Below, piece by piece: positions 14,170 to 39,496 of a DNA stretch of 64,000 nucleotides (position 1 is its first letter; the number at the start of each line of letters is the position of its first letter). A model generated the notes under the pieces. That model ran no database searches, was not told the DNA's origin, and saw only the letters and a list, made by a program, of their open reading frames with translations. A program made the position numbers and the translations under genes. The stretch is from contig JAUWLF010000007.1 of assembly GCA_030613785.1 (NCBI GenBank), forward strand, positions 1-64,000, in the 5' to 3' direction. The stretch comes from Chloroflexota bacterium (GTDB taxonomy: Bacteria; Chloroflexota; Anaerolineae; UBA7937; B3-Chlor).

Positions 14170-15771
14170 ATGAAGGAGAAGAAGGTCCGAGATGTGGTTC
14201 TCGAATCCGGCATTTCCGTGAAGCCGATCTATGGCCCTGAGGATGTGGCTGACATAGACTACCTCAGGGACATCGGGGAGCCAGGTACCTATCCTTTCAC
14301 CCGCGGCATCCACAAGTACATGTACAGGTATCGTCCCTGGACCATGCGCCAGTACGCTGGCTTTGGAACCCCTCAGGAGAGCAATCAGCGTTTCAGGTAT
14401 CTCATTGAGCACGGACAGAACGCCCTCAATGTGGCTTTCGATCTACCCTCTCAAATGGGTCTAGATTCCGACGATCCCCTTGCCTGGGGTGAAGTGGGCC
14501 GGGTGGGGATGGCGGTGGACACCCTGCATGACATGGCGATGGCCTTCGAAGGCATCCCCGTGGACAAGATCAGCGTCAGCCTGACCATCAACGGCGTGGC
14601 CGCCATCATGATGGCCATGTACTTCGTGGTGGCTGAGACGCAGGGGGTGCCTCTGAACAAGTTGAGGGGCACGGCTCAAAATGACATCCTCAAGGAGTAC
14701 ATTGGGCGGGGAACCTGGATTTTTCCGGTGGAGCCCTCCATTCGTCTCATTGGCGACACCATCGAGTTCTGCGCGGAAAACGTGCCCTACTACTATCCCG
14801 TCAGCGTGTGCGGATATCACATCCGTGAGTCGGGAGCCAATCCGGTTCAGGAGATCGCGTATGCTTATGCCATCGCCTCGGCCTATGTCGAGCACGTGCG
14901 GGAACGGGGCGTGGATGTGGATGACTTCGTGGCTCGTCTTTCCTTCAATTTCGACATCTGGGGCAACATCTTCGAACAGGTGGCCAAGTTCCGCGCCGCA
15001 CGTCGTCTGTGGGCCAAGATAGTACGGGAGAGGTTCGGAGCTACCAATCCCAAGGCCATGCAGATGAAGATGATCGCCGGGGGTGGCGGTGGGGGCCTGA
15101 CTATCGAGCAGCCTGAGAACAACATCGTGCGCGGCGCTTACTATGCTCTCGTGTCGGCCCTTAGTGGCACCCAGACGATGGCTTTGTGTACTTATGACGA
15201 AGCTTACACCATACCGACGGAGAAAGCAGCCCTCATCGGCCTCCGCACTATGCAACTCCTGGTGGAGGAGATGGGGGTGTGTGACACGGTGGATCCCCTG
15301 GCCGGCTCGTACTACATCGAGCGCCTGACCGCTGACCTAGAGGAGAAGATCGTGGCAGAGATGGAGAAGGTGGAGCAAATGGGGGGCATCGTCAAAGCAA
15401 TCAGTGAGGGCCACATCCAGCGTGAGGTTGCGCGCCAAGCATACCTCTATGAGCAGGCCATCCAGAAAGGGGAGATCGTCAAGGTCGGCGTGAACAAGTA
15501 CCGTATCGAGGAAGAGGAGCGGGATGTCGAACTCCACGAATATAAGCCAGAGCAAGCGGAGGAGAAGCTTCGGCGCTTGAACGAGATCAGGTCTCAGCGC
15601 GATGGGGCCAAAGTGATTGAGGCTTTGGAGAACGTGCGTCGAGCGGCTGAAGGAACAGACAACCTGATGCCGTACATCATGGAAGCCGTGCGGGCCTATG
15701 CCACCGTCGGGGAGATGACGCAGGTTCTCAAGGATGTTTTCGGCGAGTTTAGGGAGCCGGTCGGGCTATGA
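14170..15771 (+). CDS. Coenzyme B12-dependent acyl-CoA mutase, large (catalytic) subunit, methylmalonyl-CoA mutase family
   Basis: A 533-residue TIM-barrel subunit without its own B12 domain; the B12-binding partner is at 39098. Such mutases move a CoA-thioester group between adjacent carbons by radical chemistry. Core features match methylmalonyl-CoA mutase: Tyr62 in RQYAGF, Arg192 in PSIRLIGD (equivalent of the carboxylate-binding Arg) and His217 in GYHIRESG. The usual HTQTSG substrate/cofactor strand is replaced by MKMIA plus six glycines (about 299-309), and GYDSD is GLDSD. Retained Arg suggests a carboxylated (succinyl-type) substrate; the Gly run suggests a larger pocket. With the Hyu, CoA-transferase and Mo-hydroxylase neighbours, (2-aminophenyl)succinyl-CoA is a better candidate than methylmalonyl-CoA (inference). 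The ATG at 14170 has GGAGGG 7 nt upstream. Confidence 0.85.
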   Translation: MKEKKVRDVVLESGISVKPIYGPEDVADIDYLRDIGEPGTYPFTRGIHKYMYRYRPWTMRQYAGFGTPQESNQRFRYLIEHGQNALNVAFDLPSQMGLDSDDPLAWGEVGRVGMAVDTLHDMAMAFEGIPVDKISVSLTINGVAAIMMAMYFVVAETQGVPLNKLRGTAQNDILKEYIGRGTWIFPVEPSIRLIGDTIEFCAENVPYYYPVSVCGYHIRESGANPVQEIAYAYAIASAYVEHVRERGVDVDDFVARLSFNFDIWGNIFEQVAKFRAARRLWAKIVRERFGATNPKAMQMKMIAGGGGGGLTIEQPENNIVRGAYYALVSALSGTQTMALCTYDEAYTIPTEKAALIGLRTMQLLVEEMGVCDTVDPLAGSYYIERLTADLEEKIVAEMEKVEQMGGIVKAISEGHIQREVARQAYLYEQAIQKGEIVKVGVNKYRIEEEERDVELHEYKPEQAEEKLRRLNEIRSQRDGAKVIEALENVRRAAEGTDNLMPYIMEAVRAYATVGEMTQVLKDVFGEFREPVGL

Positions 15772-15786
15772 ATTGGCGAGGTCAGC

Positions 15787-17017
15787 TTGGACCAAGCCAG
15801 TTCACCGATAAGAGAGGGGGCTGACAGACTGTTGCTGTCAGGAGTACGCATCGTGGACCTGACCCACATGCTCGCGGGGCCGTTCGGGTCCATGCTGTTG
15901 GCTGACCTCGTAGCAGAGGTCAGCAAGATCGAGAATCCTCAAGGAGGGGATCCGACCAGACGGGTAGGGCCGCCGTTCGTCGAAGGAGAGAGCGGCTATT
16001 TCATGAGCATCAACCGCAACAAGCGGAGCGCGGCGCTGGATCTTCGCCAGACTCAAGGCCGCCAGGTTCTCCACGATCTGGTGAAGGTCTCGGATGTGGT
16101 ATTCAATAACTTCCGGCCTGGCACGATGGAGAAGCTGGGATGCGGGTACGACGTTCTTGAGGAGATTAGCCCCCGGCTCATCTACTGTTCCCTCACAGGC
16201 TTTGCCGAAACGGGACCATACAGAGATCGTCCTGCGTTCGACCTGGCCATTCAGGCTATCAGCGGGGCAATGAGTATCACTGGTGAGCCTGACCGCCCAC
16301 CCGTGCGCATGGGTGTCCCATTGGGGGACTTGAGTGGCAGCTTGTTCTGCGCTTTCGCCATCTCCGCAGTTCTCTACGCGAGGGAGAAGTCAGGTGCCGG
16401 TCGCAGGATTGACGTTGCTCTGATGGATTGCATGATCTCATTGCTGACCTACGTGGGCCAGTATCACCTGATCGATGGACAGGTTCCAGGTCCCATCGGC
16501 TCCGCCCACCAGTCGGTGGTGCCGTATCAAGCCTTTGCGACCAAGGACACATACGTCGTGGTCGCCATCTTCGTGGAGAAGTTCTGGCACGCCTTCTGCC
16601 AGGTCTTGGGAGTCGAGGAACTGGCCGCCGATCCCCGTTTCGCCCACGGCGATCGGCGCGCTGAAAACCGGCATGAGTTGATACCCATCTTGGAGGAGAT
16701 CCTACGCAGCAAACGTGGCGATGAGTGGCTCGAACTGTTGGCCGAGGTGGGGGTGCCTTGCAGTCCGATCAACACTTTGGACCGCGTCTTCTCGGAGCCG
16801 CAGGTGGCTGCCCGCAACATGGTGGTGGAGGTGGATCACCCGACAGTTGGCCGTCTGCCCTCCATAGGGAATCCCGTGAAGACGTCTCCACAGGGTGAGG
16901 CACCCTTCCGACCCGCGCCCCCTGTGTGGCGAGCACACTGACGAAGTGTTGAGGGAGATCTTGCGATATTCGCCCAGCCGGATCGCAGCACTGCGTGACA
17001 AGGGCGTCATCGGCTAG
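15787..17017 (+). CDS. Type III CoA-transferase (CaiB/BaiF family), with apparent C-terminal frameshift
   Basis: A family III CoA-transferase that moves CoA between carboxylic acids through an aspartyl-CoA intermediate. LLLSGVRIVDLTHMLAGP opens the Rossmann fold, RPGTMEKLG and the catalytic-Asp region AFDLAIQAISG follow. In the starting frame translation stops at 16941, but the typical family tail GEHTDEVLREIL...RIAALRDKGVI continues in the +1 frame to a stop at 17015-17017. The break lies near a run of five C at 16918-16922, so one extra base (real or assembly) is the simplest cause. The truncated product would lose about 28 residues. The start is a TTG at 15787 with GAGG upstream. In context it could activate (2-aminophenyl)succinate or indoleacetate. 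Confidence 0.82.
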
Positions 17018-17107
17018 GCACGTGGTTTCACTGGCGAACTCGATGGAAAGTCATCTCTCACCCGCCCAAGGAGGGAGATGCAGTCACGGACTGGAGGATG
17101 GAGAAGT

Positions 17108-19162
17108 ATGCGTATCGGTATTGACGTTGGAGGGACCTTCACGGACATCGTACTCATAGATGATGCCACCAGAGAGGTACACTACACCAAGGTGCTGACC
17201 ACTCACGATGACCTGGCCAGGGGTGTCATCGCTGGCATCGACAAGATGCTGGAGATGGTGGGCGCCACTTTCGACAAGGTAGACTACACGGTGCATGGTA
17301 CGACGATTGGCACCAACGCTCTCATCGAGCGGAAGGGAGCACGTACAGGACTGATCACTACGCAGGGCATGAGGGACGTCTTGGAGATAGGTCGCATCGA
17401 GCGGCCCGCTGCGGGTCTGTATGATATCTTCGTTGACACCCCGCTGCCTCTTGTGCCGCGATACCTGCGTGTGGATGTCGAGGAGCGGGTCGGGGTAGAC
17501 GGGGAGGTGGTCGTTGCCCTTGACGAGGAATCGGCTCGCGAGGCGGTGCGCTTCCTCAAGGACCAGGCGGTGGAATCCATAGCCATCTCTTTTCTCTTCA
17601 GCTTTCGGAACCCCACACACGAGGAGCGAGTGCGGGAGTTCTGCCAGAGCATGTTCCCGGAGGCAGCCGTTTCCATATCCTCCGAGATCGCCCCCGAGTT
17701 CCGTGAATTTGAGCGTACTTCCACCACGGTCATCAACGCGTATCTGGCTCCGGTCGTTGAATACTATCTGGACAATCTAGAGGGACAACTTCAAGACCGG
17801 TACGGGGACGTAGACCTGCGTATCATGCAAGCCAGCGGTGGCTCCATGACCACGGAGATGGCCAAGCATCGAGCGGTCAACATCGTCAACTCAGGTCCTG
17901 CTGGCGGGGCACTGGCGGCTGCCTATGTGGGGCGACTGACGGGCGACGACCAGGTCATCAGCGTGGACATGGGTGGCACGAGTTTCGATGTGGGTGTGAT
18001 AGACCGTGGCGAACCTCGCGTAGCGCCCGAAAGCCAGTTTGAGGGTTTCCCCGTCAAGATACCCATCCTCGACGTGCAGGCCATCGGCGCGGGTGGCGGG
18101 AGCCTGGCGTGGATCGACGAGGGTGGCGCTCTGAATGTAGGGCCTGAGAGCGCCGGGTCGGAGCCTGGACCAGCTTGCTATGGATTGAGTGGAGAGCAAC
18201 CGACGGTCACCGACGCAAACCTGGTGTTGGGCCGGCTCAATCCCGAGTACTTCCTGGGCGGGGAGATGAAGCTATATCCGGAGTTGGCTGAGGCGGCCAT
18301 CGTGCAGCACGTGTCCGAACCGTTGGGGGTATCTCTTGAAGAGGCGGCGAGTGGAATAATCCGCGTGGTCAACGCCAATATGGAGAGGGCCATCAGCGTG
18401 AATTCGACTGAGAAGGGCTTCGATGTCCGGGAGTTCGCTCTGCTCCCCTTCGGAGGCGCAGGGCCGCTACACGCCGTAGAATTGGCACAGGACTTGGACA
18501 TGAAAAGGGTGGTTGTCCCTCCCTACGCGGGCACTTTCTCCGCAGTCGGACTTCTGGTGGCGAACACGCGCTACGACTATGCTTCCACAGTGGCCAAGAG
18601 CGAGAAGGAGCTGACGCCTGAGGAACTGCTCAGGAGGTTCAAGGAACTGGAGACTGAGGGCCGGGCTCAACTGAAGGCCCAAAACGTAGCTGAGGATCAG
18701 ATCGAGATTCTCTGGTCTGCCGATTTGCGGTATGAGGGCCAATCCTATGAGCTCAGCACACCGGTGAAGCGCAGCGAGGTTCTCACACAGTCCGACATCA
18801 GAGAAATCGTGAGCCTTTTCCACGACATGCACCACCGCATCTACGCCTATGGCTCGGTGGATGAGATCGTCGAGTTCATCAACTTGAGAGTGGCGGCCAT
18901 AGGCAAAGTGCCTGAGGTGTCACTGGCGCACAGCGGGGCCACAGGAGGTGACGCTGGAATTGCACGAAAGGACACTCGTCCGGTTCATTTCCTCAAGGAG
19001 GGCTTCATCGACACGGCGATCTACGACCGCGCTCTGCTCCGGCCAGGGCACGTGGTCACCGGCCCGGCTTTGATCGAGGAGATAGCGTCGACCACGGTCA
19101 TTGCTCCAGGCTCCGAGGGAACGGTAGACGAGTTTGGTAATATCATCATCCCTCTGTCATAG
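17108..19162 (+). CDS. HyuA-type ATP-dependent hydantoinase/oxoprolinase alpha subunit
   Basis: 684 residues. An acetate/sugar-kinase-like ATP-binding fold starts with MRIGIDVGGTFTDIVLID, followed by VHGTTIGTNALIERKG, a central VDMGGTSFDVGVI motif and GAGGGSLAWID. This family uses ATP to open cyclic amides or carboxylate ketones (5-oxoprolinase, N-methylhydantoinase, acetone and acetophenone carboxylases) together with a HyuB subunit, encoded 38 bp downstream. In the anaerobic indoleacetate route a HyuAB-like enzyme hydrolyses the lactam of oxindole-acetate to (2-aminophenyl)succinate; that role fits the neighbours here (inference). ATG at 17108 follows GGAGGATGGAG. Confidence 0.88.
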   Translation: MRIGIDVGGTFTDIVLIDDATREVHYTKVLTTHDDLARGVIAGIDKMLEMVGATFDKVDYTVHGTTIGTNALIERKGARTGLITTQGMRDVLEIGRIERPAAGLYDIFVDTPLPLVPRYLRVDVEERVGVDGEVVVALDEESAREAVRFLKDQAVESIAISFLFSFRNPTHEERVREFCQSMFPEAAVSISSEIAPEFREFERTSTTVINAYLAPVVEYYLDNLEGQLQDRYGDVDLRIMQASGGSMTTEMAKHRAVNIVNSGPAGGALAAAYVGRLTGDDQVISVDMGGTSFDVGVIDRGEPRVAPESQFEGFPVKIPILDVQAIGAGGGSLAWIDEGGALNVGPESAGSEPGPACYGLSGEQPTVTDANLVLGRLNPEYFLGGEMKLYPELAEAAIVQHVSEPLGVSLEEAASGIIRVVNANMERAISVNSTEKGFDVREFALLPFGGAGPLHAVELAQDLDMKRVVVPPYAGTFSAVGLLVANTRYDYASTVAKSEKELTPEELLRRFKELETEGRAQLKAQNVAEDQIEILWSADLRYEGQSYELSTPVKRSEVLTQSDIREIVSLFHDMHHRIYAYGSVDEIVEFINLRVAAIGKVPEVSLAHSGATGGDAGIARKDTRPVHFLKEGFIDTAIYDRALLRPGHVVTGPALIEEIASTTVIAPGSEGTVDEFGNIIIPLS

Positions 19163-19200
19163 GCAGAGAGCGAGTCAATTCTCAATCCAGGAGGTATTCC

Positions 19201-20919
19201 ATGGCTTACAAGGCTGATTCCATTACCATGCAGGTTATCCGCTATGCCATGGAGCAGGCGGCTGATGAGATGGGCCGAACACTAGTCCGCACGGCACGCT
19301 CGACGGTCATCAAGGAGATCGAGGATATGACGTGCTCCGTCTTCGACCGTTACGGCAATACCATCGCCCAGGCTCACCATGCTCCTATGCTTCTCACGGG
19401 GTTTGAACTTGGGATGCGCGCCCTTGTCGGGAAGTACAAGCCTGAGGATCTCGACCCCGGTGACATGATCATGTTCAACGATCCTTATGCCGGCGGCCAG
19501 CACGTCATGGATATGGTGACCTTTGCGCCGGCCCACTACGACGGGGAGTTGATCGGCTTCGCTGGTAGCATCGCGCATCACTCAGACATGGGCGGCGCGG
19601 TGCCCGGGGGAACGGCCGGCGGACTGACTGAGATCTATCTCGAGGGCCTACGTTTTCCGATGGTCAAGCTGTACAAGAAAGGTGAGGAGGACCCTGAACT
19701 CTTCGGCATCCTGGAGAACAACATCCGCGTTCCAGACAAGACACTGGGGGACATCCGCGCGCAGGCCTCAGCCGACTTCGTAGGCGTGCAGAGGCTGCGG
19801 GACATTTTTGAGAAGTACGGGGTCGAGGTAGTGCAGAAGTGTCAGGAGATGCTGCTGGACTATTCGGAGAGCCGCATCCGGGCCGGGTTGAGGAAGATCG
19901 CCGACGGCACATACAGCGGTGTGGACTGGATTGACGACGATGGTCAGACTGACGAGCCGATCAGGCTTCAAGTGAATATCCACAAGAAGGGCGATGAAGT
20001 CGCTGTTGATTTCGACGGCACGGCCAAGCAGGTGAAGGGCAATATCAACTGCCCCATAGCCACGGTCCACGCCGCTGTGTACTACGCCCTCATCGCCGTG
20101 ATCGATCCCCACGTGCCGCCGAACTCAGGCTGCTATCGCCCTTTCACCGTCGAGGCTGAGGAGGGGCTCATCGTCAACCCACGGATGCCTGCCGCGGTGG
20201 GTGCCCGAACCAATACGTCACAGAAAATCGCTGAGGCGATGATGCTGGCGCTGTCCGAGGTTGTCCCTGATCGTGTTCAAGCCGGCTGTCACGGTCAGAT
20301 TACCAACTGCGGATTCAGCGGCTACCACCCAAGATCGGGAAAGCGCTTCGTCTTCATCGACATCCAGGGTGGTGGCGCAGGTGCTCGACCCACCAAGGAT
20401 GGTCGGGATGGTCAGGACTCGCATCTAGCGCGCTTCAAGAACACGCCCATCGAGGCCGTCGAGATGGAGTACCCTGTACGTATCCTGAAATACGAGTTCA
20501 TTGCCGACTCAGGGGGAGCGGGCAAGTACAGGGGAGGCTTGGCCGTACGCCGAGACATCGAGGTGCTCACAGATGACATGTCACTGGCTCGATATGGCGA
20601 CCGTCAACGCTTCGGCGCCTTCGGCCTGTTTGGCGGCAAGGAGGGGAGCAAGGGCAAGTTCATACTCAACCCTGACACGCCCGAGGAACGCCAGCTCAAG
20701 TCCAAGGGGCTGGATGTCCTCAACAGCGGAGACGTCGTGAGCCTCCGATTGCCAGGTGCCGGGGGCTACGGCGATCCCCTGGAACGTGACCCGGAACTGC
20801 TCCTGCAAGATGTCAGAGATGGGAAGGTGACCCTGGAAAGCGCACGGGACGATTACAAGGTGGTCATAGATCCGGACACTTGGCAGATAGATGAAGAGGC
20901 GACCAAGAAGCTCAGGTGA
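19201..20919 (+). CDS. HyuB-type ATP-dependent hydantoinase/oxoprolinase beta subunit
   Basis: 572 residues, normal for HyuB. Diagnostic segments include EIEDMTCSVFDRYGN, MIMFNDPYAGGQHVMDM, the acid/His-rich AHHSDMGGAVPGG, and a C-terminal LPGAGGYGDPLERD that nearly all HyuB proteins share. It forms the hydrolytic half with the HyuA subunit upstream. An AGGAGG precedes the ATG. The V4R-domain gene follows after 9 bp, indicating one transcript. Confidence 0.9.
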   Translation: MAYKADSITMQVIRYAMEQAADEMGRTLVRTARSTVIKEIEDMTCSVFDRYGNTIAQAHHAPMLLTGFELGMRALVGKYKPEDLDPGDMIMFNDPYAGGQHVMDMVTFAPAHYDGELIGFAGSIAHHSDMGGAVPGGTAGGLTEIYLEGLRFPMVKLYKKGEEDPELFGILENNIRVPDKTLGDIRAQASADFVGVQRLRDIFEKYGVEVVQKCQEMLLDYSESRIRAGLRKIADGTYSGVDWIDDDGQTDEPIRLQVNIHKKGDEVAVDFDGTAKQVKGNINCPIATVHAAVYYALIAVIDPHVPPNSGCYRPFTVEAEEGLIVNPRMPAAVGARTNTSQKIAEAMMLALSEVVPDRVQAGCHGQITNCGFSGYHPRSGKRFVFIDIQGGGAGARPTKDGRDGQDSHLARFKNTPIEAVEMEYPVRILKYEFIADSGGAGKYRGGLAVRRDIEVLTDDMSLARYGDRQRFGAFGLFGGKEGSKGKFILNPDTPEERQLKSKGLDVLNSGDVVSLRLPGAGGYGDPLERDPELLLQDVRDGKVTLESARDDYKVVIDPDTWQIDEEATKKLR

Positions 20920-20928
20920 CGAGGAAGC

Positions 20929-21432
20929 ATGGAGAACTCGATCCTGGACAGCCTGGAATACGATGCGGAGGAAGGGCGTATCACCTTCAAAGACGTGCGT
21001 TACATGGTCATCCGGCCCGATACGGTGGTGGACTTTCAGAAGGCGGTGGAGGCCCAGGTCGGTGAAGGAGCGGCCGAGATGATGATGGCCGGCGGTTACA
21101 CGGGCGGGTCCCGCTCGTCGAGGAGGTACAAGCAGGTCTTCGAATACTCCGACGAGGAGACAGTCGCCTTCATGTGTAAGATGGGAGGCGAGATCGGCTG
21201 GGGTAGATTCGAGGTTGAGAAGCTGGACGTGGTTGGCAAGGAGTTAGTGATCACAGTCAGAAACTCCCCCTTTGCCGAGGCATACGGCAGGTCGGACAAG
21301 GGTGTCTGCCACATGATTCGCGGTGTGATGGCCGGGATGGCGGCCGGCATCTTCGGGAGTGACATCAACTCGGAGGAAACTCTGTGCGTGGCCAAGGGGG
21401 ACGCATTGTGCCGCTTCGTGCTCAGAGGATGA
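20929..21432 (+). CDS. V4R (4-vinyl reductase) domain protein
   Basis: 167 residues with a C-terminal V4R domain: NSPFAEAYG, VCHMIRGVMAGMAAGIFGS, and EETLCVAKGDALCRFVL. V4R domains bind small hydrophobic or aromatic ligands, often with a Cys-bound zinc, and occur as sensor domains of aromatic-degradation regulators (XylR/DmpR type) and in bacteriochlorophyll synthesis. Here it is stand-alone, with no DNA-binding or ATPase domain. At the 3' end of the mutase-CoA-transferase-Hyu unit it may sense or carry a pathway intermediate (inference). Confidence 0.75.
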   Translation: MENSILDSLEYDAEEGRITFKDVRYMVIRPDTVVDFQKAVEAQVGEGAAEMMMAGGYTGGSRSSRRYKQVFEYSDEETVAFMCKMGGEIGWGRFEVEKLDVVGKELVITVRNSPFAEAYGRSDKGVCHMIRGVMAGMAAGIFGSDINSEETLCVAKGDALCRFVLRG

Positions 21433-21642: not shown

Positions 21643-21703
21643 TCCTCAGGATAGACCGAGATGCTCCTGGAGTCTCCAAGTGCAACGCAAAGGAGAGAGA
21701 ACG

Positions 21704-25951: not shown

Positions 25952-25952
25952 G

Positions 25953-27376: not shown

Positions 27377-27413
27377 GAAAAGGAGGCAGATGGAACTCGA
27401 GGGAGCACGAGCT

Positions 27414-27872: not shown

Positions 27873-27896
27873 CCAGTTTCTGTGGAGGAAGTAGTA

Positions 27897-31360: not shown

Positions 31361-32508
31361 TGAGCCTTTCTGGCAAAGGAGCAGAGTCTGAGATGCAGGA
31401 ACTGACGCTCAATGAGAATCTGTTGGCCGCGCCTGTCCATGTGGCCGGCAAACCTATAGAGGAAGTGCGGAGGGAATATGGTCTAGAGAGGATCATCAAG
31501 CTGGCCTCGAACGAGAACCCTCTCGGCCCATCGCCTCTGGCCGTGGAAGCGATCAAGAAGGCTCTCCCAAACGCCCATCGGTATCCGGGAACAGTCGAAG
31601 CCAATTTGCGTGCGAGGCTGGCCCAGCTCATGGGCGGCGACTTTGACGAAGACAACATCATCATCGGCAATGGTTCGTGCGACGTGCTGCGTATGGTATG
31701 CCTGGCTTTCCTGCATGACGGAGGCGAGAGTGTTGTTTGTCCCTCCACGTTTCCCATGTACAGGATCTACACTCAGATGTTTGGTGGCAACCTGGTGCCA
31801 GTCGAGGCTCGGGACTATGCCTATGATCTGCCTGCGATGGTGGAGAAGATCGGTGACGCCACGAGGTTGATCTTCGTTTGCAATCCCAACAATCCCACAG
31901 GCACGATGCTGACCCAGCAGCAGGTTGATGATTTCATGGAGCAAGTGCCCGAGCGGGTGGTAGTGGTGGTCGATGAGGCGTACTACGATTACGTTGCTGA
32001 CGAGCACTACGCCAGCGTCAAGGAGTACATTGAGGAGGGCCGCAACGTCATCTTGACGCGAACCTTCTCCAAGATCCATGGCTTGGCCGGTCTTCGAGTG
32101 GGATATGGCGTTGCCAAGAAGGAGATGATCCAATACTTGCAACACGCCCGTTCACCCTTCCATGTGGGGTCGGTGAACCTGATCGGAGCCACAGCTAGCC
32201 TGGATGATGTAGAACACATACAGCGGAGCAGAACGCTGAACGCGGCCGAGAAAGAATACCTCTACGAGCAGTTCGACAGACTGGATCTGCGCCACATTCC
32301 CTCTGAAACCAATTTCATACTGCTTCCGGAGTTGAGGCACGACGCGGTGGCTATGAGCGAGGCGCTCTTACGTCAAGGGGTGATCGTGCGTCCGGCAGGC
32401 GGTTTCGGTGTCCCGGGAGCCATTCGAGTGACCATAGGTACGAGGGAGGAGAACGAGCGCCTCGTGTGGGCGCTGGAACAGGTACTGCACGAACTGACAG
32501 AGGGGTGA
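31360..32508 (+). CDS. Histidinol-phosphate/aromatic aminotransferase (class I/II, HisC-like)
   Basis: 382 residues. KLASNENPLGPSP is the HisC-family N-terminal motif, NPNNPTGTML and the PLP Lys238 in TFSKIHGLAGLRVGY follow, with an Arg-containing C-terminal PGAIRVTIG that binds the substrate carboxylate. HisC-like enzymes often act on aromatic amino acids. No other his genes are present, and iorAB is 5 kb upstream in the same direction, so an aromatic amino acid to aryl-pyruvate role is likely (inference). The ATG at 31360 overlaps the preceding stop; an ATG at 31393 behind AAAGGAG is an alternative. Confidence 0.88.
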   Translation: MSLSGKGAESEMQELTLNENLLAAPVHVAGKPIEEVRREYGLERIIKLASNENPLGPSPLAVEAIKKALPNAHRYPGTVEANLRARLAQLMGGDFDEDNIIIGNGSCDVLRMVCLAFLHDGGESVVCPSTFPMYRIYTQMFGGNLVPVEARDYAYDLPAMVEKIGDATRLIFVCNPNNPTGTMLTQQQVDDFMEQVPERVVVVVDEAYYDYVADEHYASVKEYIEEGRNVILTRTFSKIHGLAGLRVGYGVAKKEMIQYLQHARSPFHVGSVNLIGATASLDDVEHIQRSRTLNAAEKEYLYEQFDRLDLRHIPSETNFILLPELRHDAVAMSEALLRQGVIVRPAGGFGVPGAIRVTIGTREENERLVWALEQVLHELTEG

Positions 32509-32566: not shown

Positions 32567-33706
32567 ATGGATTTCGGGTTCACCCAGGATCAGGAGCTCT
32601 TGAAGAGCAGCGTGGCGAGTTTCGTGGACAGGGAGGTCATCCCCGCTGCGGCCCGGATCGATGAGGAGGGCCGCTTTCCCGGCGAGCTATTCCGGAAGGC
32701 GGGTGAACTGGGGTATTTCGGGATTCGCTATCCAGGGACGTACGGCGGCTCGGGCGGGGACAACGTGATGTTCGCTTTGATGTGCGAGGAACTGGCCAGG
32801 GGCTGCATGAGTCTGGCCGCCAGTGTTGTCATGCAGTGTCTGATGGGCACTAGTTTCGTTCACCGTTTTGGGACGGAGAAGCAAAGACAGCAATTGCTTG
32901 TTCCCGCCATCCGAGGCGAGAAAATCGGGGTCATCGCCATGACTGAGCCCGATGCCGGGTCTGACCTGGGAGCCATCACAACCAGCGCCTGCCGCGATCA
33001 CGACGGCTACGTCTTGAAAGGGCGCAAGACGTGGGTCACCAACGCCAGCCTGGCTGATTTCTTCACGGTGGCTGCCAAGACTGATCCCGAAGCCGGATTC
33101 AGGGGCATTGACATGTTCTTGGTGGAAAAGGAGAGGCCTGGCGTCAGTATCGGAAAGGACATCGCCAAGATGGGGGTGCGGGGTCTAGGGACTGGTGAGT
33201 TGATCCTGGAGGATTGCCGCATCCCCGCCGACAACCTTTTCGGCAAGGAGGGAACTGGCTTTCGGAACCTGCAAGGGATCCTGGAGGAGATCCGCATCAT
33301 GATGGGATCATTGAGCCTGGGCCTGGGGCAAGCTGCTCTGGACGGGGCCGTGCGATATGCTCAGGAGAGAGTCCAGTTCAACCGTCCCATCGCCAAGTTC
33401 CAAGCCATCTCCCACAAGTTGGCGGATATGGCTACACAGTTGGAAGCCGCCAGGCTGCTGGTCTATCGGGCGGCCTGGCTTGTTGATCAGGATGAGCGAG
33501 ACATGAAACTGGCTTCCATGGCCAAGCTGTTCGCCTCGGAGATGGCCAACCAAGTCGCCGACGGTGCCTCTCGCATCTTCGCCAGCTACGGGTTCGCCAT
33601 GGAGTATGATGCACAGCGGTACTTTCGCGACGCACGGTTCCTATTGCTTGGTGGAGGAACATCGGAGGTCCTACGAGGGATCATTGCCTACCAGATGTGC
33701 CTGTGA
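32567..33706 (+). CDS. Acyl-CoA dehydrogenase family protein (first of two)
   Basis: 379 residues with full ACAD domains: DFGFTQDQELLKSSVASF N-terminal helices, MTEPDAGSDLGAI flavin strand, and a C-terminal helical domain (NRPIAKFQAISHKLADMA). At the usual YEGT catalytic-base position it has GGGT (Gly363 for Glu), and the alternative Glu of isovaleryl-CoA dehydrogenase is not evident either. If the substrate is a malonyl-type thioester, decarboxylation could replace proton abstraction, as in (2-aminobenzyl)malonyl-CoA oxidation (inference). It is the paralogue of the next gene. Confidence 0.92.
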   Translation: MDFGFTQDQELLKSSVASFVDREVIPAAARIDEEGRFPGELFRKAGELGYFGIRYPGTYGGSGGDNVMFALMCEELARGCMSLAASVVMQCLMGTSFVHRFGTEKQRQQLLVPAIRGEKIGVIAMTEPDAGSDLGAITTSACRDHDGYVLKGRKTWVTNASLADFFTVAAKTDPEAGFRGIDMFLVEKERPGVSIGKDIAKMGVRGLGTGELILEDCRIPADNLFGKEGTGFRNLQGILEEIRIMMGSLSLGLGQAALDGAVRYAQERVQFNRPIAKFQAISHKLADMATQLEAARLLVYRAAWLVDQDERDMKLASMAKLFASEMANQVADGASRIFASYGFAMEYDAQRYFRDARFLLLGGGTSEVLRGIIAYQMCL

Positions 33707-33758: not shown

Positions 33759-34904
33759 ATGGATTTCGATTTCACTCCTGAACAAGAGCTTTTCCGTCAG
33801 AGCGTGAGGGAGTTCGCCGACAGATATGTCCGTCCACGCATCAAGGAAATGGAGGAGAAGGGGGACGTTCCCCAAGGTCTAATGCAGCAGATGGCCGAGC
33901 AAGGTTTCTACGGCATCCGCTATGCAGAGGAGTGGGGTGGACAGGGTGGGGACAATGTCATGTTCGCTATCCTCAACGAGGAACTGGCACGCTGCTACAT
34001 GAGTGTGGCAGCCAGGTGCATGATGCAATGCCTCATGGGCACCGAGTTCATCAACCTCTATGGCACCGAGGAGCAGAAGCGGAACTTCCTCGTCCCGGCC
34101 ATCAGGGGGGAGAAGTACGGTACGCTGGCCATCACTGAACCGGCTGGCGGAACAGACCTGGGGGCCATGCAGACGCTTGCCGTGCGGGACGGCGATGAGT
34201 ACGTCATCAACGGCCAGAAGACCTGGATTACCGGCGCACATGTGGTCGACTTTTTCACCATAGCCGCCAAGACCGACCCTGAAGCAGGGTTCAGGGGTGT
34301 GGACATGTTTCTCGTGGACAGGCACACCCCGGGCGTAAGAGTGGGTGATCGAATCGAGAAGCTGATCGCGTTCGCTTCGGGGTGTTATGAGCTGTTCTTC
34401 GACGATGTGCGGATTCCGGCGGATCGGCTGTTCGGAGGAGAGGAGGGCGAGGGTTTCGCGCTGCTACGCAGTATCCTGAACGATATTCGCGTCCACACCG
34501 CTGCTCTAGGCTTGGGGATAGCCCGAGCTGCCTACGAGGAATCGGTGGAGTACGCAAAGCAGCGTGTGGCCTACGGACGCCCCATCATCAAGTGGCAGGC
34601 CATACAGCACAAGCTGGCTAGGATGAGGATTGACATAGACGCGGCCAAGCTGATGATCTACTGCGCTGCCTGGCGAATGGATCAGGGCTTTCCGGTCAAT
34701 GTCGAGGCTGCCACCGCCAAGTGGTTCATCACGGAGGCGGTGTTGAGGATTGTTGATGATGCCACTCGCATTTTCGGGGCCTATGGTGCCTCAATGGACA
34801 TGAACGCCCAGAGGTACTTGCGTGACGCGCGGTGGCTTCTCTACGGTGGCGGGACGCAGACGATGATTCTCAACATCATCGGCATTGAGATAGGCAAGGA
34901 GTAG
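33759..34904 (+). CDS. Acyl-CoA dehydrogenase family protein (second of two)
   Basis: 381 residues, clearly homologous throughout to the gene 52 bp upstream. ITEPAGGTDLGAM replaces the usual EPxAGSD, and the catalytic Glu position is again Gly (GGGT, Gly364). Paired ACAD genes may encode a heteromeric enzyme, as in some steroid and aromatic pathways, or two successive steps. A GGGAGCTGAGGAACG ribosome site precedes the ATG. The 4-hydroxybenzoyl-CoA-reductase-like genes follow after 15 bp. Confidence 0.92.
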   Translation: MDFDFTPEQELFRQSVREFADRYVRPRIKEMEEKGDVPQGLMQQMAEQGFYGIRYAEEWGGQGGDNVMFAILNEELARCYMSVAARCMMQCLMGTEFINLYGTEEQKRNFLVPAIRGEKYGTLAITEPAGGTDLGAMQTLAVRDGDEYVINGQKTWITGAHVVDFFTIAAKTDPEAGFRGVDMFLVDRHTPGVRVGDRIEKLIAFASGCYELFFDDVRIPADRLFGGEEGEGFALLRSILNDIRVHTAALGLGIARAAYEESVEYAKQRVAYGRPIIKWQAIQHKLARMRIDIDAAKLMIYCAAWRMDQGFPVNVEAATAKWFITEAVLRIVDDATRIFGAYGASMDMNAQRYLRDARWLLYGGGTQTMILNIIGIEIGKE

Positions 34905-34919
34905 CAGACGGAGGGAAAG

Positions 34920-35909
34920 ATGGGGCTGCCCAAGTTCGAACATCTGCAACCGGAGTCGTTGGACGAGGCCCTGGGAGTGCTCTCTGAACATGGGGAGCAG
35001 GCCAAGATCATCGCTGGTGGAACTGAGCTTCTGGTGTCCATGAAGCAGGGCTTGCTGACTCCGAACTATCTGGTGAACCTGAAGGCGATTCCCGAGCTAA
35101 GCTTCATCGCGTACGATGAAGAGAGAGGGCTGCGCATCGGCGCACTCACCAAGTTGACCACACTGACGAGTTCCCAGGTGATACAGGACGGTTTCTCGAT
35201 CTTGGCGCAGACGGCCAATTTGGTGGCTGCTCCTCCTCTTCAGAACATGGGTACCCTGGGGGGTAATCTCTGCCTCAATACGAGGTGCTTCTACTACAAT
35301 CAGTCACAGTTCTGGAGGCAAGCTCGACCCCGCTGCTATAAGACCGGCGGGGATCTGTGTCACGTGGTGAAGGGTGGAAACCGGTGTTTCGCGACGTACC
35401 AGGGGGACATGGCTCCAGCTCTGATCGCCCTCGAAGCCACCGTCAAGATAGCGAAGAGGGGCGGCGAGCGAGTCATCCCGCTGGCTGACCTCTACACTGG
35501 AAAGGGGAAGCGACCTCTGGCCCTGAAGGCCAACGAAATGCTGGTTGAAGTGCAGGTGCCTATGTCAGCCTCTGCGTGGTCCGGCGAATACCAGAAGCTC
35601 CGCTACCGTGGGGCGATGGATTTCCCACTGGCGGGGGTAGCCGCTGTTGTCGGAAGAGATGGTTCTGAAACCTGCTCCAAGGCTGGCGTGGTGCTGACCG
35701 CTGTCGGCACAGGCCCCATCCTCGTGGAGGAAGCCAGCGTGCTTCTTGAAGGGCAGGGGGTAACCGACGAACGGGTGGCCCAGGTCGCAAGCGCGGCCCA
35801 CGAGGTGGCTCGTCCTGTGGACAACATTGGCAGCGACCCCTCATACAGGAGGAAGATGGTTCGCGTTCTCACGAAGAGGGCCCTAGTGAATGCGTGGGAA
35901 AGGGAATGA
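34920..35909 (+). CDS. 4-hydroxybenzoyl-CoA reductase-like beta subunit (FAD plus extra [4Fe-4S])
   Basis: 329 residues of the CoxM flavoprotein family with IIAGGTELLVSMK and MGTLGGNLCLNTRCF. After the second FAD loop comes an insertion with Cys at 118, 123, 139, 147 and 156; the last four have the spacing (16, 8, 9) I recall for the [4Fe-4S] ligands of Thauera HcrB. The insertion is absent from the paralogue at 26501. In HcrB it lets the enzyme run backwards, reducing substrates with low-potential ferredoxin electrons. This points to reductive aromatic chemistry in an anaerobe rather than oxidation. Confidence 0.9.
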   Translation: MGLPKFEHLQPESLDEALGVLSEHGEQAKIIAGGTELLVSMKQGLLTPNYLVNLKAIPELSFIAYDEERGLRIGALTKLTTLTSSQVIQDGFSILAQTANLVAAPPLQNMGTLGGNLCLNTRCFYYNQSQFWRQARPRCYKTGGDLCHVVKGGNRCFATYQGDMAPALIALEATVKIAKRGGERVIPLADLYTGKGKRPLALKANEMLVEVQVPMSASAWSGEYQKLRYRGAMDFPLAGVAAVVGRDGSETCSKAGVVLTAVGTGPILVEEASVLLEGQGVTDERVAQVASAAHEVARPVDNIGSDPSYRRKMVRVLTKRALVNAWERE

Positions 35910-35912
35910 GTC

Positions 35913-36380
35913 ATGGAAAAGCAGCTTATCCAGTTGACCGTGAACGGTGAGGATCATGATGTCGTCGTTACACCCAACCAGACGCTGGTTGATGTGCTAC
36001 GGGAGGATCTAGAGCTGACTGGGACCAAGGTGGGATGCGACGAGGGGGCCTGCGGAACCTGCACCGTGCTCATGGATGGAAAGCCCGTGCGTTCCTGCCT
36101 CACTCTCGCTGTCGAAGCACAGGGGAAGTCGATCGAGACCATCGAGGGGCTGGCTTCAGGTGGAGAGTTGCATCCTGTGCAGAAGGCCTTCATTGAACAC
36201 GGGGCCATCCAGTGTGGCTTCTGCACTCCGGCCATGATCCTGACCAGCAAGGCGTTTCTTGAGCAGAACCCCCATCCCACAGAGGAGGAAGTGAGACGCG
36301 CCATCTCGGGTGTGGTGTGTCGCTGTACTGGATACGCCAAGATCGTGGAAGCAATCATGGCGGCAGCGGGAGAGTCTTAG
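35913..36380 (+). CDS. 4-hydroxybenzoyl-CoA reductase-like gamma subunit ([2Fe-2S])
   Basis: 155 residues with both [2Fe-2S] motifs (CDEGACGTCTVLMDG...C; CGFCTPAM; CRCTGY). It is highly similar to the subunit at 27414, indicating an in-cluster duplication. It starts 4 bp after the beta subunit. Confidence 0.92.
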   Translation: MEKQLIQLTVNGEDHDVVVTPNQTLVDVLREDLELTGTKVGCDEGACGTCTVLMDGKPVRSCLTLAVEAQGKSIETIEGLASGGELHPVQKAFIEHGAIQCGFCTPAMILTSKAFLEQNPHPTEEEVRRAISGVVCRCTGYAKIVEAIMAAAGES

Positions 36381-36397
36381 AAAGGAAGGACGGCACC

Positions 36398-38677
36398 ATG
36401 GCAGAGCATACTCTTGTCGGCCAGCGGGTGGTGAGGATCGATTCCCGGGCCAAGGCGACCGGGCAGGCTCGCTACACGGCGGACTTGACCCTTCCCCGCA
36501 TGCTATGTGGCAAGGTGCTGAGGAGCCCGCACGCTCATGCCAGGATCCTTAACATCGATACCAGCAAGGCCGAGAGACTTCGCGGTGTGAGGGCAATTGT
36601 GACCGGGAAGGACGCGGCAGGAGTGAAATGGGGGGTGTTCGGTTATACTCGCGATCAAGAGCTTCTGACTCGCGACAAGGTTCGGTACATCGGAGAAGAC
36701 GTGGCAGCAGTGGCGGCCGAGGACGAGGACACCGCTGTGGAGGCCTTGAAGCTGATCGAGGTGGAGTATGAGGTCCTGCCCGCCGTCTTCGACCCCCTTG
36801 AGGCCACACAGGAAGGTGCACCCCAGATCCACGATCACGCCGAAAACAACATCAATATCCATGTGCCCATTGAAATAGGGGACGTTGATAAGGCGTTCAG
36901 GGACGCGTACTACGTGAGAGAGGACCGCTTTGTCAATACCGAATACGGCTACTGTCAGACTGAGCCGTACGCTGTACTAGCCAGCTACGACTCGGACGGC
37001 AACTTGGAGATATGGACACCCAACGCCTCTCCACACACCAAGGCCAAGGCACTGTCGAATCTGTTGCAGAAACCTCTGAGCAAGGTCAAAGTGCGAAAGG
37101 TCTATACAGGCGGGGCCTTCGGCGGTCGCTCGGATATCTTCCCTGGCGAGTTTATCGCCGCCCTCTTGACCATGAAAGCTCGCAGACCGGTGAAGTTGGT
37201 CTACACGAGAGAGGAGAGCTTCACTAGCGTGAGACAGGTGCACTCCATGGTCGTGGACCTGAAGACAGGTGTGGCCGAGGACGGGAGGCTTCTGGCCAAC
37301 GAGATCAAGGTCGTCATGGACGGAGGGGCATACAGCAGCACAGGACCGATCGCCACCTCGGTGCCCTTCCTCGTCTGGGAGGAGACGTATCGTCTACCCA
37401 ATGTCCGCTTCAACGGGTACCGCGTGTATACTAACAAGCCCGTTCGAGGGATGTACCGCTGTCACGGGCGAGCCTTTCTCGGGGGGCTGGGGATGCAGTT
37501 GGACATGATCGCTGAGGAGTTGGGCATTGATCCGGTAGAGATGCGTCTGAGGAACGCCCTCACTACCGGAGACACCCAGGCCACGGGTTCGAAGATCATC
37601 AGTTGCGGCCTCAGCGAGGCGATGGAACAAGCGGCTGAGGAATCCGGGTGGAAGCACAAGCGGGGAAAGCTGCCCCATGGCAAGGGGATCGGCATGGGTG
37701 CTAACGGCATGATGGTGGGGTTTCCGATGGGCATACGCGGTGGTTCGTCGGCCATGATCAAGTTCAACGAGGATGCGGGAGCCACACTCATCTCAGGGGT
37801 GGTGGACAACGGCCAGGGCAACGAGAGCATGGTGGTGCAGGTCGCGGCTGACGTGCTTGGTTTGAAGATGGAGGACATCAACCTAGTATGCTCGGATTCG
37901 GAGATTACTCCTCTGGATCAGGGCGCGTACTCCCAAGCCGCCGCTTTTGTCTCCGCGAATGCGGCCATGGGGGCGGCTATAGACTCTAGAGAGCAGATTC
38001 TGGAGATCGCCTCTGAGATGCTGGACGCAACCGTTGACGAGTTGGACCTCAGAGATGGCTACGTCTTCGTGAAGGAAAGACCCGAGCGGAACATGTGGAT
38101 GGGCAAGGCCATTCGCAAAGCGCTGATCGAGGATACCCCGATCATGGGCCGAGGCTCGTACATGCCCAAGGTCGATCAGAGGCGGGAGTGGGTCAGTAAC
38201 CCCCGAGGACAGCACGCTGGCACCTTCAGCTTTGGAGCTGTCATCGCAGAGGTGGAGGTGGACACTGAGACCGGACAGGTGAGAGTGACCAACGTCACTG
38301 GTGCCCATGACTGCGGTTTCGCCATCAATCCCATGGCTGTAGAGGGGCAACTGGAGGGTTCCGTTGCTTCAGGAGGAGTGGGGGCGACGTTGCTCGAGGA
38401 GCACTCCTGGGACGGCGGACAGATGCTGAACGCCAACATGCTGGAGTACAAGGTACCTCTCTCCGTGGATATGCCTCAGATCACGCCTATCATTGTGGAA
38501 ACGATCGACCCCGAGGGCCCATTTGGGGCCAAGGAAGCCGGCTTATGGGGTTCCATGAACATGTTCCAGGCCATCGGCAACGCCATCTACGATGCCGTGG
38601 GCGTCTGGATCAAGGAGTTTCCCATCACTCCGGACAAGGTGCTCGCTGCGCTTGAGGAGAAGGACAAGGACCGATGA
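36398..38677 (+). CDS. 4-hydroxybenzoyl-CoA reductase-like alpha subunit, Mo-binding, with divergent active-site motifs
   Basis: 759 residues of the xanthine-dehydrogenase family. GGAFGGRSD and DNGQGNES Mo-cofactor loops are present, but two others differ from the paralogue at 27897: the RGYGxPQ loop reads VRGMYRCHGRA, and the catalytic Glu of GAKxxxE is Leu716 in GAKEAGLWG (Glu715 in the paralogue). If the alignment holds, it lacks the Glu used for hydroxylation, which suggests different chemistry or an unusual substrate. It partners with the [4Fe-4S]-containing beta subunit. ATG at 36398 follows AAGGAAGGACGG; the stop overlaps the next ATG. Confidence 0.85.
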   Translation: MAEHTLVGQRVVRIDSRAKATGQARYTADLTLPRMLCGKVLRSPHAHARILNIDTSKAERLRGVRAIVTGKDAAGVKWGVFGYTRDQELLTRDKVRYIGEDVAAVAAEDEDTAVEALKLIEVEYEVLPAVFDPLEATQEGAPQIHDHAENNINIHVPIEIGDVDKAFRDAYYVREDRFVNTEYGYCQTEPYAVLASYDSDGNLEIWTPNASPHTKAKALSNLLQKPLSKVKVRKVYTGGAFGGRSDIFPGEFIAALLTMKARRPVKLVYTREESFTSVRQVHSMVVDLKTGVAEDGRLLANEIKVVMDGGAYSSTGPIATSVPFLVWEETYRLPNVRFNGYRVYTNKPVRGMYRCHGRAFLGGLGMQLDMIAEELGIDPVEMRLRNALTTGDTQATGSKIISCGLSEAMEQAAEESGWKHKRGKLPHGKGIGMGANGMMVGFPMGIRGGSSAMIKFNEDAGATLISGVVDNGQGNESMVVQVAADVLGLKMEDINLVCSDSEITPLDQGAYSQAAAFVSANAAMGAAIDSREQILEIASEMLDATVDELDLRDGYVFVKERPERNMWMGKAIRKALIEDTPIMGRGSYMPKVDQRREWVSNPRGQHAGTFSFGAVIAEVEVDTETGQVRVTNVTGAHDCGFAINPMAVEGQLEGSVASGGVGATLLEEHSWDGGQMLNANMLEYKVPLSVDMPQITPIIVETIDPEGPFGAKEAGLWGSMNMFQAIGNAIYDAVGVWIKEFPITPDKVLAALEEKDKDR

Positions 38678-39117
38678 AACTTCGGGCCATAGATCATCTG
38701 TGCATCGCGGTCAAGGACTTGGAGAAAGCGCGCCGCGCGTATGAAGAGGACCTGGGGCTGGAGTTGCACAGCCTCTACGAGGCGGAGAGCGAGAAGATCA
38801 AGGTAGCGCGCTACTATCTAGGAGACGTGGCTTTGGAGTTGATCCAGGCCACTTCTTCGGACAGCGAGGTGGCCAAGTTCCTCCGGAAGCGCGGTGAGGG
38901 TTTCTTCCTGATCTCGTACCGAGTGGATGACGTAGAGGACGCCCTGGCCGAGTTGAAAGCAAAGAGAGTGAAGACGATTGACCAACGGCCCCGTCGCGTG
39001 AAGGGCAACCGATATGCCTTCATCCACTATCCCGCAGAACTCGCCGGAGTGCTCACGGAAGTGCTGGACGGGGAATTCAAGTGCGACGAGGAGGACAATG
39101 CAGAAGAGGCCGGTTAG
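38674..39117 (+). CDS. VOC-family protein resembling methylmalonyl-CoA epimerase
   Basis: 147 residues with two glyoxalase-fold modules. AIDHLCIAVKDLEKARRAY supplies the first metal His; LGDVALELI and the final GVLTEVLDG Glu match methylmalonyl-CoA epimerase. The diagnostic GEGLHHI segment is GEGFFLI (74-80), so the His pair containing a metal ligand is missing. It is therefore unlikely to be a standard epimerase; it may act on a related alpha-branched CoA ester such as an arylmalonyl-CoA (inference). It overlaps the preceding stop by 4 bp and the B12 subunit start by 20 bp. Confidence 0.75.
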   Translation: MKLRAIDHLCIAVKDLEKARRAYEEDLGLELHSLYEAESEKIKVARYYLGDVALELIQATSSDSEVAKFLRKRGEGFFLISYRVDDVEDALAELKAKRVKTIDQRPRRVKGNRYAFIHYPAELAGVLTEVLDGEFKCDEEDNAEEAG

Positions 39118-39496
39118 GGTGTTGGTGGCGAAGCCAGGTCTGGATGGTCACGATCGAGGGGCCAAGGTCGTTGCCCACGCCTTGCGTGACGCTGGCATGG
39201 AGATCATCTACACGGGCCTGCACCAGACGGTGGAGCAGATCGTGGAGGCAGCGCTGCAAGAAGATGTGGATGTGCTCGGCCTTTCCGTCCTATCGGGAGC
39301 TCATCTGCCTTTGACCGAGAAGCTCATGGGGCTGCTGAGTGAGAAGGGCTTGGACGATCTAGTGGTTATCGTGGGGGGCAACATCCCCCGTGGGGACATA
39401 CAGAAGCTGGAGGCCTTGGGAGTGGACCGGGTGTTCCGTACCGGTTCACGCTTCGATGACATGGTTAGCTTCATTGAGGAGAGTGTCGGCGAGTGA
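39098..39496 (+). CDS. Coenzyme B12-binding subunit of an acyl-CoA mutase
   Basis: 132 residues, exactly one B12-binding Rossmann domain. KPGLDGHDRGAKVVAHAL contains the DxHxxG motif with His18 as lower cobalt ligand; SVLSGAH and VGGNIPRGD complete the nucleotide-loop pocket. It is the only B12 domain in the window and should complete the large subunit at 14170, although the two genes are 25 kb apart at opposite ends of the cluster. Split mutases of this kind are known in archaea and for 2-hydroxyisobutyryl- or isobutyryl-CoA mutases. Confidence 0.9.
   Translation: MQKRPVRVLVAKPGLDGHDRGAKVVAHALRDAGMEIIYTGLHQTVEQIVEAALQEDVDVLGLSVLSGAHLPLTEKLMGLLSEKGLDDLVVIVGGNIPRGDIQKLEALGVDRVFRTGSRFDDMVSFIEESVGE

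Follow-up and report, generated by a model that had tools for sequence, protein, structure and literature searches.

Indole, a pollutant, commonly arises when tryptophan is broken down. The mechanism of its anaerobic degradation was called a black box in a 2018 review (PMC6221969). The closest described pathway is encoded by iaa operons and ends at 2-aminobenzoyl-CoA (PMC8360864; PMC9613470). Such operons were named in Aromatoleum aromaticum/evansii, in Desulfatiglans anilini and other sulfate reducers, and in Ferroglobus placidus, and an IaaF of Thermoplasmatales is listed in the same source (PMC8360864). As iaa operons are published for archaea and sulfate reducers, a spread outside the Proteobacteria is not new, and the statement in a preliminary description of the DNA studied here that the pathway is known from betaproteobacteria was too narrow. 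For Chloroflexi, auxin-degrading loci of the aerobic iac and iad kinds have been reported (PMC9613470). The present analysis concerns a 64,000-nucleotide stretch of contig JAUWLF010000007.1 of a Chloroflexota bacterium (hereafter, the window) and, within it, a cluster of 21 genes on the plus strand at positions 14170-39496, in which all gene families named in the preliminary description were recovered at their place by family profiles.

The cluster shares with the iaa operons of A. aromaticum/evansii, F. placidus, D. anilini and Thermoplasmatales a B12-dependent mutase of the IaaGH kind, an acyl-CoA dehydrogenase (ACAD) of the GGG-type IaaF and a type III CoA-transferase (PMC8360864). Unlike these operons, it contains no IaaB ligase, and its entry would proceed via an aminotransferase and the indolepyruvate oxidoreductase IorAB. 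By gene content, in a comparison made without Aromatoleum sequences, a TrpB2/SerK-like module, a second molybdenum (Mo) enzyme resembling Hcr, two GGG-type ACADs, a V4R protein and an epimerase-like gene set the window apart from these operons. The cluster is thus a variant of the iaa-type pathway and not a strict member, the IaaB ligase being missing from the operon. We propose that TrpB2 and the SerK-like protein probably form an indole-entry module, and that the cluster would take free indole, or tryptophan, to 2-aminobenzoyl-CoA without oxygen. The preliminary description had recognized both genes but regarded them as additions to the route; the linkage of TrpB2 to IorA in 22 of 25 genomes, described below, probably assigns them to its beginning. 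The predicted entry of indole via TrpB2 and a SerK-like kinase into an iaa-type core is likely new; open-access titles and abstract openings yielded no description of indole degradation via TrpB2 or of iaa clusters in Chloroflexota, which is a weak negative. Throughout, gene content, order, families, motifs and trees were observed, while substrates and reaction directions are predicted from them.

TrpB2 (21680-23074, likely start M9) is assigned to its class by TIGR01415 (622 bits, cut-off 519). It keeps the pyridoxal phosphate lysine motif and carries the motifs GSHK and GGGS, the latter reading GGGSS in the window versus GGGSN in most relatives. TrpB2 enzymes are described as using O-phosphoserine and as having a high indole affinity (PMC11917138, where Busch 2014 and Hettwer & Sterner 2002 are cited), and the same co-substrate is predicted here from class and neighbours. 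Class assignment, cofactor motif and SerK-like neighbour are shared with the TrpB2 enzymes of Thermococcus kodakarensis and other archaea, which act in indole salvage. While their known role is biosynthesis and salvage (PMC11085991), the window gene belongs to a degradation operon, in which it is immediately followed by SerK and IorA. A capture of exogenous indole as tryptophan, which is then metabolised, is known from Bifidobacterium (PMC11085991); there, unlike in the window, TrpB is fused to TrpC, serine is supplied and the product is indole-3-lactate, with no ring opening described in the accessible part of that source (PMC11085991). The gene following TrpB2 (23174-23998) encodes a protein that resembles free serine kinases and matches SbnI and SerK (5x0b) in the PDB; it is the predicted source of O-phosphoserine. 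Its HE, DGATR and TRH motifs occur in 12 of 12 aligned proteins, window included, and the HE and DG..R motifs, which align to SbnI, presumably hold catalytic residues. The open frame that holds the SerK-like domain is much longer in many genomes of the class (about 560-1015 amino acids, compared with 274 residues here), perhaps as the result of a fusion. SbnI produces O-phosphoserine (PMC7139808).

The genomic context was analysed in the 25 Chloroflexota genomes that carry both the cluster mutase and TrpB2 (counted at an identity of at least 55%), the window's own genome included. In 22 of them, TrpB2 is located upstream of IorA at a distance of at most 5 kb. These are, in our own numbering, G000, G005, G113, G155, G184, G171, G176, G103, G216, G300, G303, G306, G308, G309, G310, G311, G315, G316, G317, G320, G321 and G322; the counts leave out seven Chloroflexota loci (L124, L125, L133, L140, L142, L143 and L164). 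In the remaining three genomes, the distance to IorA on the same contig is 12 kb (G071) or 13 kb (G034), or the genes are unlinked (G299). The genes found between TrpB2 and IorA encode SerK in 12, a SerA-like dehydrogenase in seven and a class-V aminotransferase in five of the 22 cases, with at least one of these in 15. SerK is the only one of them in eight genomes (G000, G005, G113, G176, G103, G309, G315 and G316), all three are present in four (G155, G184, G216 and G317), SerA and the aminotransferase in G322, and SerA alone in G171 and G320, as well as, farther from IorA, in G071. Five of the SerA-like proteins were scanned; against the phosphoglycerate dehydrogenase (PGDH) model (cut-off 454), they scored 374-428 bits, with matches that span the first ~300 of its 525 positions; the others are named by similarity.

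Genomes that carry a TrpB2-SerK pair without the cluster mutase served as controls. With at least 3 kb readable downstream, none of six such pairs was accompanied by IorA (p = 1e-4); when three poorly informative contigs are included, the count is zero of nine (p = 4e-6). Relatedness is ignored in these p values, as in all Fisher tests and locus-count comparisons given here. In a tree of TrpB2 sequences, the IorA-linked rows fall into two groups, one of four rows including the window (support 99/99) and one of 22 rows (99/99), of which two are unlinked and two loosely linked. Nine unlinked TrpB2 proteins of the class form a third group (98/97). G171 and G317 possess an unlinked TrpB2-SerK pair in addition to the IorA-linked TrpB2, and the two copies fall into separate groups. 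For a TrpB2-SerK pair at the head of IorAB and the ring-opening genes, with its own phosphoserine supply, the best explanation would be that it captures indole to be degraded.

Several observations weigh against an indole-entry role. The SerK-like protein scores far below the NCBIfam cut-offs for SbnI (69 versus 350 bits) and SerK (64 versus 380 bits) and is therefore said to work like these enzymes, not to be one of them; for one archaeal fusion protein that resembles SerK, binding of CTP instead of ATP is reported (PMC12704722). No phosphoserine gene lies between TrpB2 and IorA in seven of the 22 genomes (G300, G303, G306, G308, G310, G311 and G321), and the model that gives the class-V aminotransferases their highest score is BhcA, not SerC. 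In the control genome G118, TrpB2-SerK is followed by a homolog (50%) of the cluster aminotransferase and the tree places its TrpB2 with the IorA-linked sequences, so that this genome is not a clean control. G100, which belongs to the same family as the window's genome, carries the cluster in the same order with neither TrpB2 nor SerK, a case that we count on both sides. TrpB2 was found in none of three further cluster genomes (G157, G291 and G298), of which G157 and G291 are only 68-70% complete; the G157 contig ends at a SerK gene that adjoins IorA. Outside the Chloroflexota, where the counts cover 35 genomes and leave out the remaining loci of other phyla, TrpB2 at 55% identity or more occurs in seven and never inside the cluster. 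In favour of indole entry, it lies on the mutase contig at a distance of 26 kb in G335 (Aminicenantes), 0.9 kb from an oppositely oriented IorBA, and of 22 kb in G344 (Myxococcales); in G332 it is 52 kb from the mutase, and in the rest of the seven it is far off or on other contigs. IorB (25932-26504) reaches only 142 bits with the best model for its family (cut-off 227). The HisC-like aminotransferase (31360-32508) passes the curated HisC cut-off (TIGR01141, 332 versus 277 bits), and its use of tryptophan is predicted from gene position. A gene resembling tryptophanase or tyrosine phenol-lyase, under the tnaA cut-off, was detected in 13 of 27 genomes, in G315 only 9 kb from TrpB2, and is absent from the window's own genome. 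In addition, anaerobic work on indole found oxindole, which points to direct C2 hydroxylation of indole (PMC6221969). Finally, the window's own genome yielded no match to TrpA (22 bits), TrpB1 or TrpC, so that TrpB2 could serve tryptophan supply for protein there.

This last point, together with the cluster of G100 and the tryptophanase-like genes, is compatible with the best-surviving alternative, in which the cluster degrades tryptophan only and TrpB2 and the SerK-like protein merely share its operon while salvaging indole or supplying tryptophan for protein. IorAB entry requires tryptophan under either reading, and in G171 a TrpB2-SerK pair also adjoins TrpB1-TrpA. We nevertheless consider this alternative rather unlikely. 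TrpA and a TrpB1-like gene are present elsewhere in the genome in 14 of the 22 IorA-linked cases, G171 and G317 have a separate TrpB2 outside the cluster, and several genomes extend the module by SerA and an aminotransferase. Moreover, a biosynthetic gene co-transcribed with the breakdown of its own product would be futile. A catabolic neighbourhood recurs in G034, where TrpB2 adjoins a tryptophan 2,3-dioxygenase-like gene (L304 12163-13134; 167 bits, cut-off 391), whose presence suggests a branch that depends on oxygen and draws on indole captured in the same way.

The next alternative, a classic Aromatoleum-type degradation of indoleacetate (auxin) taken up from outside, is very improbable. 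The core enzymes do agree in kind (IaaF, IaaGH, Hyu and type III CoA-transferase) with those of the described route (PMC8360864), and a frame on locus L307 of the window's own genome looks like a phenylacetate-CoA ligase by eye. However, a search by family profiles, confined to the 21 cluster genes, revealed no CoA ligase (IaaB), and the cluster has an aminotransferase and IorAB in its stead. IorA (24041-25951) exceeds its family cut-off (TIGR03336, 668.7 versus 650.9 bits), and more distant IorAB proteins (28-38%) adjoin the mutase in several other phyla. Because the CoA ligase is missing from the cluster and an aminotransferase and IorAB are present, entry via tryptophan is favoured, and "indoleacetate degradation", one half of the label in the preliminary description, becomes less likely.

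The core itself very probably encodes an iaa-type pathway, as the preliminary description had suggested. The large mutase subunit MutL (14170-15771, in an open frame from 14029 with the likely start M48) resembles IaaG. In a tree built by a quick method with SH-aLRT support (an approximate likelihood-ratio test) only and without Aromatoleum IaaG, 81 cluster mutases, among them MutL and those of Ferroglobus and Thermoplasmata, lineages for which an iaa operon or an IaaF is published (PMC8360864), were split from 21 methylmalonyl-CoA mutase paralogs by one branch with a support of 100. An assignment of MutL as methylmalonyl-CoA mutase was consequently rejected. The small, B12-binding subunit MutS (39014-39496, likely start near 39095; PF02310) resembles IaaH. 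Directly upstream lies a gene for an epimerase-like VOC protein (38674-39117) that scores 98.4 bits with the methylmalonyl-CoA epimerase model TIGR03081 (cut-off 115); it was missed in the earlier gene list. Both ACADs (ACAD1, 32567-33706, and ACAD2, 33759-34904), with inferred roles as IaaF-like benzylmalonyl-CoA dehydrogenases, carry GGG instead of the YEG usual in this family. Among the rows taken from named loci, GGG is likewise present in 38 of 38 of the ACAD1 type and in one of two of the ACAD2 type, the other (L108) reading GAG. Hyu-type ring-opening genes and type III CoA-transferases are present at the family level. The putative ATP-dependent lactam hydrolase consists of HyuA (17078-19162), whose best NCBIfam match is caprolactamase alpha (627 bits, cut-off 1000) and not acetophenone carboxylase (336 bits), and of HyuB (19201-20919; PF02538), with 348 bits for caprolactamase beta, also under the cut-off. 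The Aromatoleum iaa operon likewise has a Hyu-like hydrolase. Two type III CoA-transferases (15787-16941, with a predicted IaaL-like role, and 30167-31360; both PF02515) complete this set.

The V4R protein (20929-21432; PF02830 and PF06505), in which no DNA-binding domain was found, is encoded 3' of HyuB. It accompanies HyuAB of the window type, in relatives likewise at its 3' side, in 12 of 15 loci with sufficient room, versus one of 23 for the other HyuAB type, and is also found in Archaeoglobus. A role as a lone sensor, assumed previously, was rejected on these counts, and the protein is probably tied to the HyuAB lactamase as a partner.

The first Mo enzyme, a predicted C2 hydroxylase of indoleacetyl-CoA, comprises an FAD subunit (26501-27376), a [2Fe-2S] subunit (27339-27872) and a large subunit (27882-30170), all identified by family matches. 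The large subunit keeps the glutamate that aligns with E726 of HcrA, which we take to be the catalytic residue under that numbering. All 15 aligned sequences of the first Mo enzyme have this Glu, and one (L077) of five other Mo enzymes aligned lacks it.

The gene set recurs in many genomes beyond chance; the cluster is real and widespread. The 35 genomes searched for MutL and the Mo large subunit comprised eight relatives of the window and, besides these, the 27 best-scoring carriers of SerK. With lines set at 66% identity or more for the cluster-type MutL (other mutases reach at most 53% at full length) and at 56% or more for the cluster-type Mo large subunit, both proteins co-occurred in the identical 13 genomes (Fisher p = 7e-10); in a fourteenth, G256, the Mo subunit is in two pieces of 46 and 53% and thus under the line. 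A scan of the collection with a MutL alignment, from which the best 80 of 218 relatives were kept, extended the distribution from Chloroflexota to Acidobacteria, Thermoplasmata, Archaeoglobus, Ferroglobus, Aminicenantes, Latescibacteria, Planctomycetes, Myxococcota, Ignavibacteria and others. Of these 80 loci, often truncated by contig ends, 71 have MutS beside MutL; the corresponding counts are 56 for HyuA, 47 for HyuB, 42 for the second CoA-transferase, 40 for ACAD1, 34 for the large subunit of the first Mo enzyme, 24 for the aminotransferase, 22 for IorB and 19 for IorA. Relatives keep the genes together, and of the findings that would have refuted the preliminary description, those tested (mutase placement, HyuA family and co-occurrence) came out in its favour. 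That the mutase, Hyu and CoA-transferases serve another substituted succinate (e.g., phenylsuccinate or alkylsuccinate), with IorAB, TrpB2 and the Mo enzymes as unrelated neighbours, is scarcely credible. In its favour, hidden Markov model families alone do not fix a substrate, and the solved structure nearest to MutL by sequence is a 2-hydroxyisobutyryl-CoA mutase. Against it speaks the recurrence, as one set, of IorAB, Mo hydroxylase, aminotransferase, CoA-transferase, GGG-type ACAD, mutase and HyuAB; moreover, GGG is the mark of the IaaF (benzylmalonyl-CoA) subclass, its sole holder among the ACAD subclasses considered in PMC8360864.

In the proposed pathway, the SerK-like protein would phosphorylate serine to O-phosphoserine, which TrpB2 would join with indole to yield tryptophan. 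Transamination by the HisC-like enzyme would give indolepyruvate, and IorAB would convert it by oxidative decarboxylation to indoleacetyl-CoA and reduced ferredoxin. The first Mo enzyme would then hydroxylate C2 of the ring with oxygen from water, and HyuAB, with V4R as a likely partner, would open the lactam at the expense of ATP to form (2-aminophenyl)succinyl-CoA, with CoA transfer by the type III transferases. A carbon-skeleton rearrangement by MutL/MutS would lead to (2-aminobenzyl)malonyl-CoA, the epimerase-like protein setting the stereoisomer, and decarboxylating oxidation by ACAD1/ACAD2 to 2-aminocinnamoyl-CoA. Hydration, oxidation and thiolysis would complete the route to 2-aminobenzoyl-CoA; the enzymes for these steps would be encoded elsewhere in this genome and inside the cluster in many relatives. 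The HcrABC-like enzyme might finally remove the amino group to give benzoyl-CoA, which the dearomatisation genes of the genome would take over. According to our own carbon count, indole (C8) and serine (C3) would yield the 2-aminobenzoyl moiety (C7), acetyl-CoA (C2) and 2 CO2. Since the serine carbon would be lost as CO2 and acetyl-CoA and its amino group would return by transamination, serine would act as a recycled co-substrate. Fumarate plays an analogous role in toluene activation. If the proposal is correct, a testable enzyme can be named for each early step of anaerobic indole degradation, and a biosynthetic reaction becomes an activation reaction in the manner of fumarate addition to toluene. 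The 22 Chloroflexota genomes in which TrpB2 heads IorAB would then be candidate indole degraders, as would G071, which has a gene for the respiratory nitrate reductase NarG, over its cut-off, between TrpB2-SerA and IorA (L309 8124-11924).

With regard to the final beta-oxidation steps, no thiolase or enoyl-CoA hydratase was matched by family profiles among the 21 genes, in line with the preliminary description, which had placed these steps elsewhere. In many relatives, however, they belong to the cluster: a MaoC hydratase, a short-chain dehydrogenase/reductase (SDR) and a thiolase are located between ACAD1 and MutS (by profiles for L110; by similarity in 19, 20 and 16 of the 80 loci, respectively). 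The cluster thiolase is 64-84% alike in ten of 14 cluster genomes searched, while the other four, which form the window's family, show at most 33%; other thiolases would therefore have to serve there. L107 and L108, close to the window in the tree, do carry the cluster thiolase. Thermoplasmata clusters (L115, L116, L126 and L129) contain MaoC and SDR without a match to the bacterial thiolase, and in L126 a KASIII-like protein with a ChsH2 OB-fold is encoded in this part of the cluster.

The second Mo enzyme resembles 4-hydroxybenzoyl-CoA reductase HcrABC (1rm6) in its three subunits and in the [4Fe-4S] loop of the beta subunit. The HcrB-like protein (34920-35909) keeps the five cysteines of the loop region when aligned to 1rm6_B. 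This loop is present in four of four HcrB-like proteins (the window and three others) versus none of eight FAD subunits of the first Mo enzyme, that of the window included. An HcrC-like [2Fe-2S] subunit (35913-36380) was identified by family match. Unlike HcrABC, all three subunits score under the equivalog cut-offs, and the HcrA-like Mo subunit (36398-38677, in an open frame from 36317) has Leu at the position of E726. Leu or Met occupies this position in five of five cluster proteins, window included, and in 118 of 118 readable sequences among the best 120 homologs (61-100% identity, window included; two without readable motif), out of 7127 proteins that passed the E-value line. Among the loci read, the window's family and L107/L108 are the only ones with HcrA-like genes inside the cluster. 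To our knowledge, no gene has been identified for the conversion of 2-aminobenzoyl-CoA to benzoyl-CoA. The reaction itself is known physiologically (PMC4539516). That the HcrABC-like enzyme is the respective deaminase is a tentative guess, which would make the Glu-less family a candidate for reductive deamination of aminobenzoyl-CoA. The combined proposal that addition of O-phosphoserine, supplied by SerK, SerA and the aminotransferase, activates indole, with a catabolic tryptophan synthase whose product serves solely to feed IorAB and the ring-opening pathway, and that the Glu-less Mo/[4Fe-4S] enzyme deaminates 2-aminobenzoyl-CoA in the window's lineage appears doubtful as a whole.

Genes for downstream dearomatisation are located elsewhere in the window's own genome. 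Locus L306 encodes 6-hydroxycyclohexenecarbonyl-CoA dehydrogenase (Had, 473 bits) and 6-oxocyclohexenecarbonyl-CoA hydrolase (Oah, 516 bits), both over their cut-offs. Next to them are encoded an activase, which passes the general CoA_E_activ cut-off, and a subunit with a higher score as 2-hydroxyisocaproyl-CoA dehydratase (217 bits) than as benzoyl-CoA reductase B (177 bits). As this subunit is nearer to the dehydratase and under both cut-offs, it can only be called benzoyl-CoA-reductase-like. The cluster contig of G034 carries subunits whose best matches, both under cut-off, are benzoyl-CoA reductase B (384 bits) and C (366 bits), and that of G103 a 39% relative of the B-like one. A pyrrolysine was considered for the benzoyl-CoA-reductase-like protein of G000, G005 and G100, in which one internal TAG had been indicated; it was rejected on the frame of G000, where this TAG is simply the terminating codon. 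On L307 (9302-15339), a gene resembling aldehyde ferredoxin oxidoreductase (206 bits, under cut-off) is followed by frames that look ferredoxin- and HdrA-like by eye, an arrangement reminiscent of the Bam genes for class II benzoyl-CoA reductase.

The window belongs to a contig of 82,869 bases in a metagenome-assembled genome of 4.29 Mb in 184 contigs (completeness 95%, contamination 6.6%), and the closest mutase is that of "Chloroflexi bacterium B3_Chlor" (90%). The intergenic gaps of the cluster range from -104 to +247 bases. A sigma-70-like promoter site (13953-13981, plus strand) precedes the operon; a consensus scan of 13400-14300 gave this one site with 11 of 12 matches versus 0.2 expected in shuffles, which is not evidence of function. 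On the 3' side, the operon is followed by genes for a histidine kinase and a response regulator (39551-42065), the latter conserved (78-89% identity) at the corresponding position of G005 and G100.

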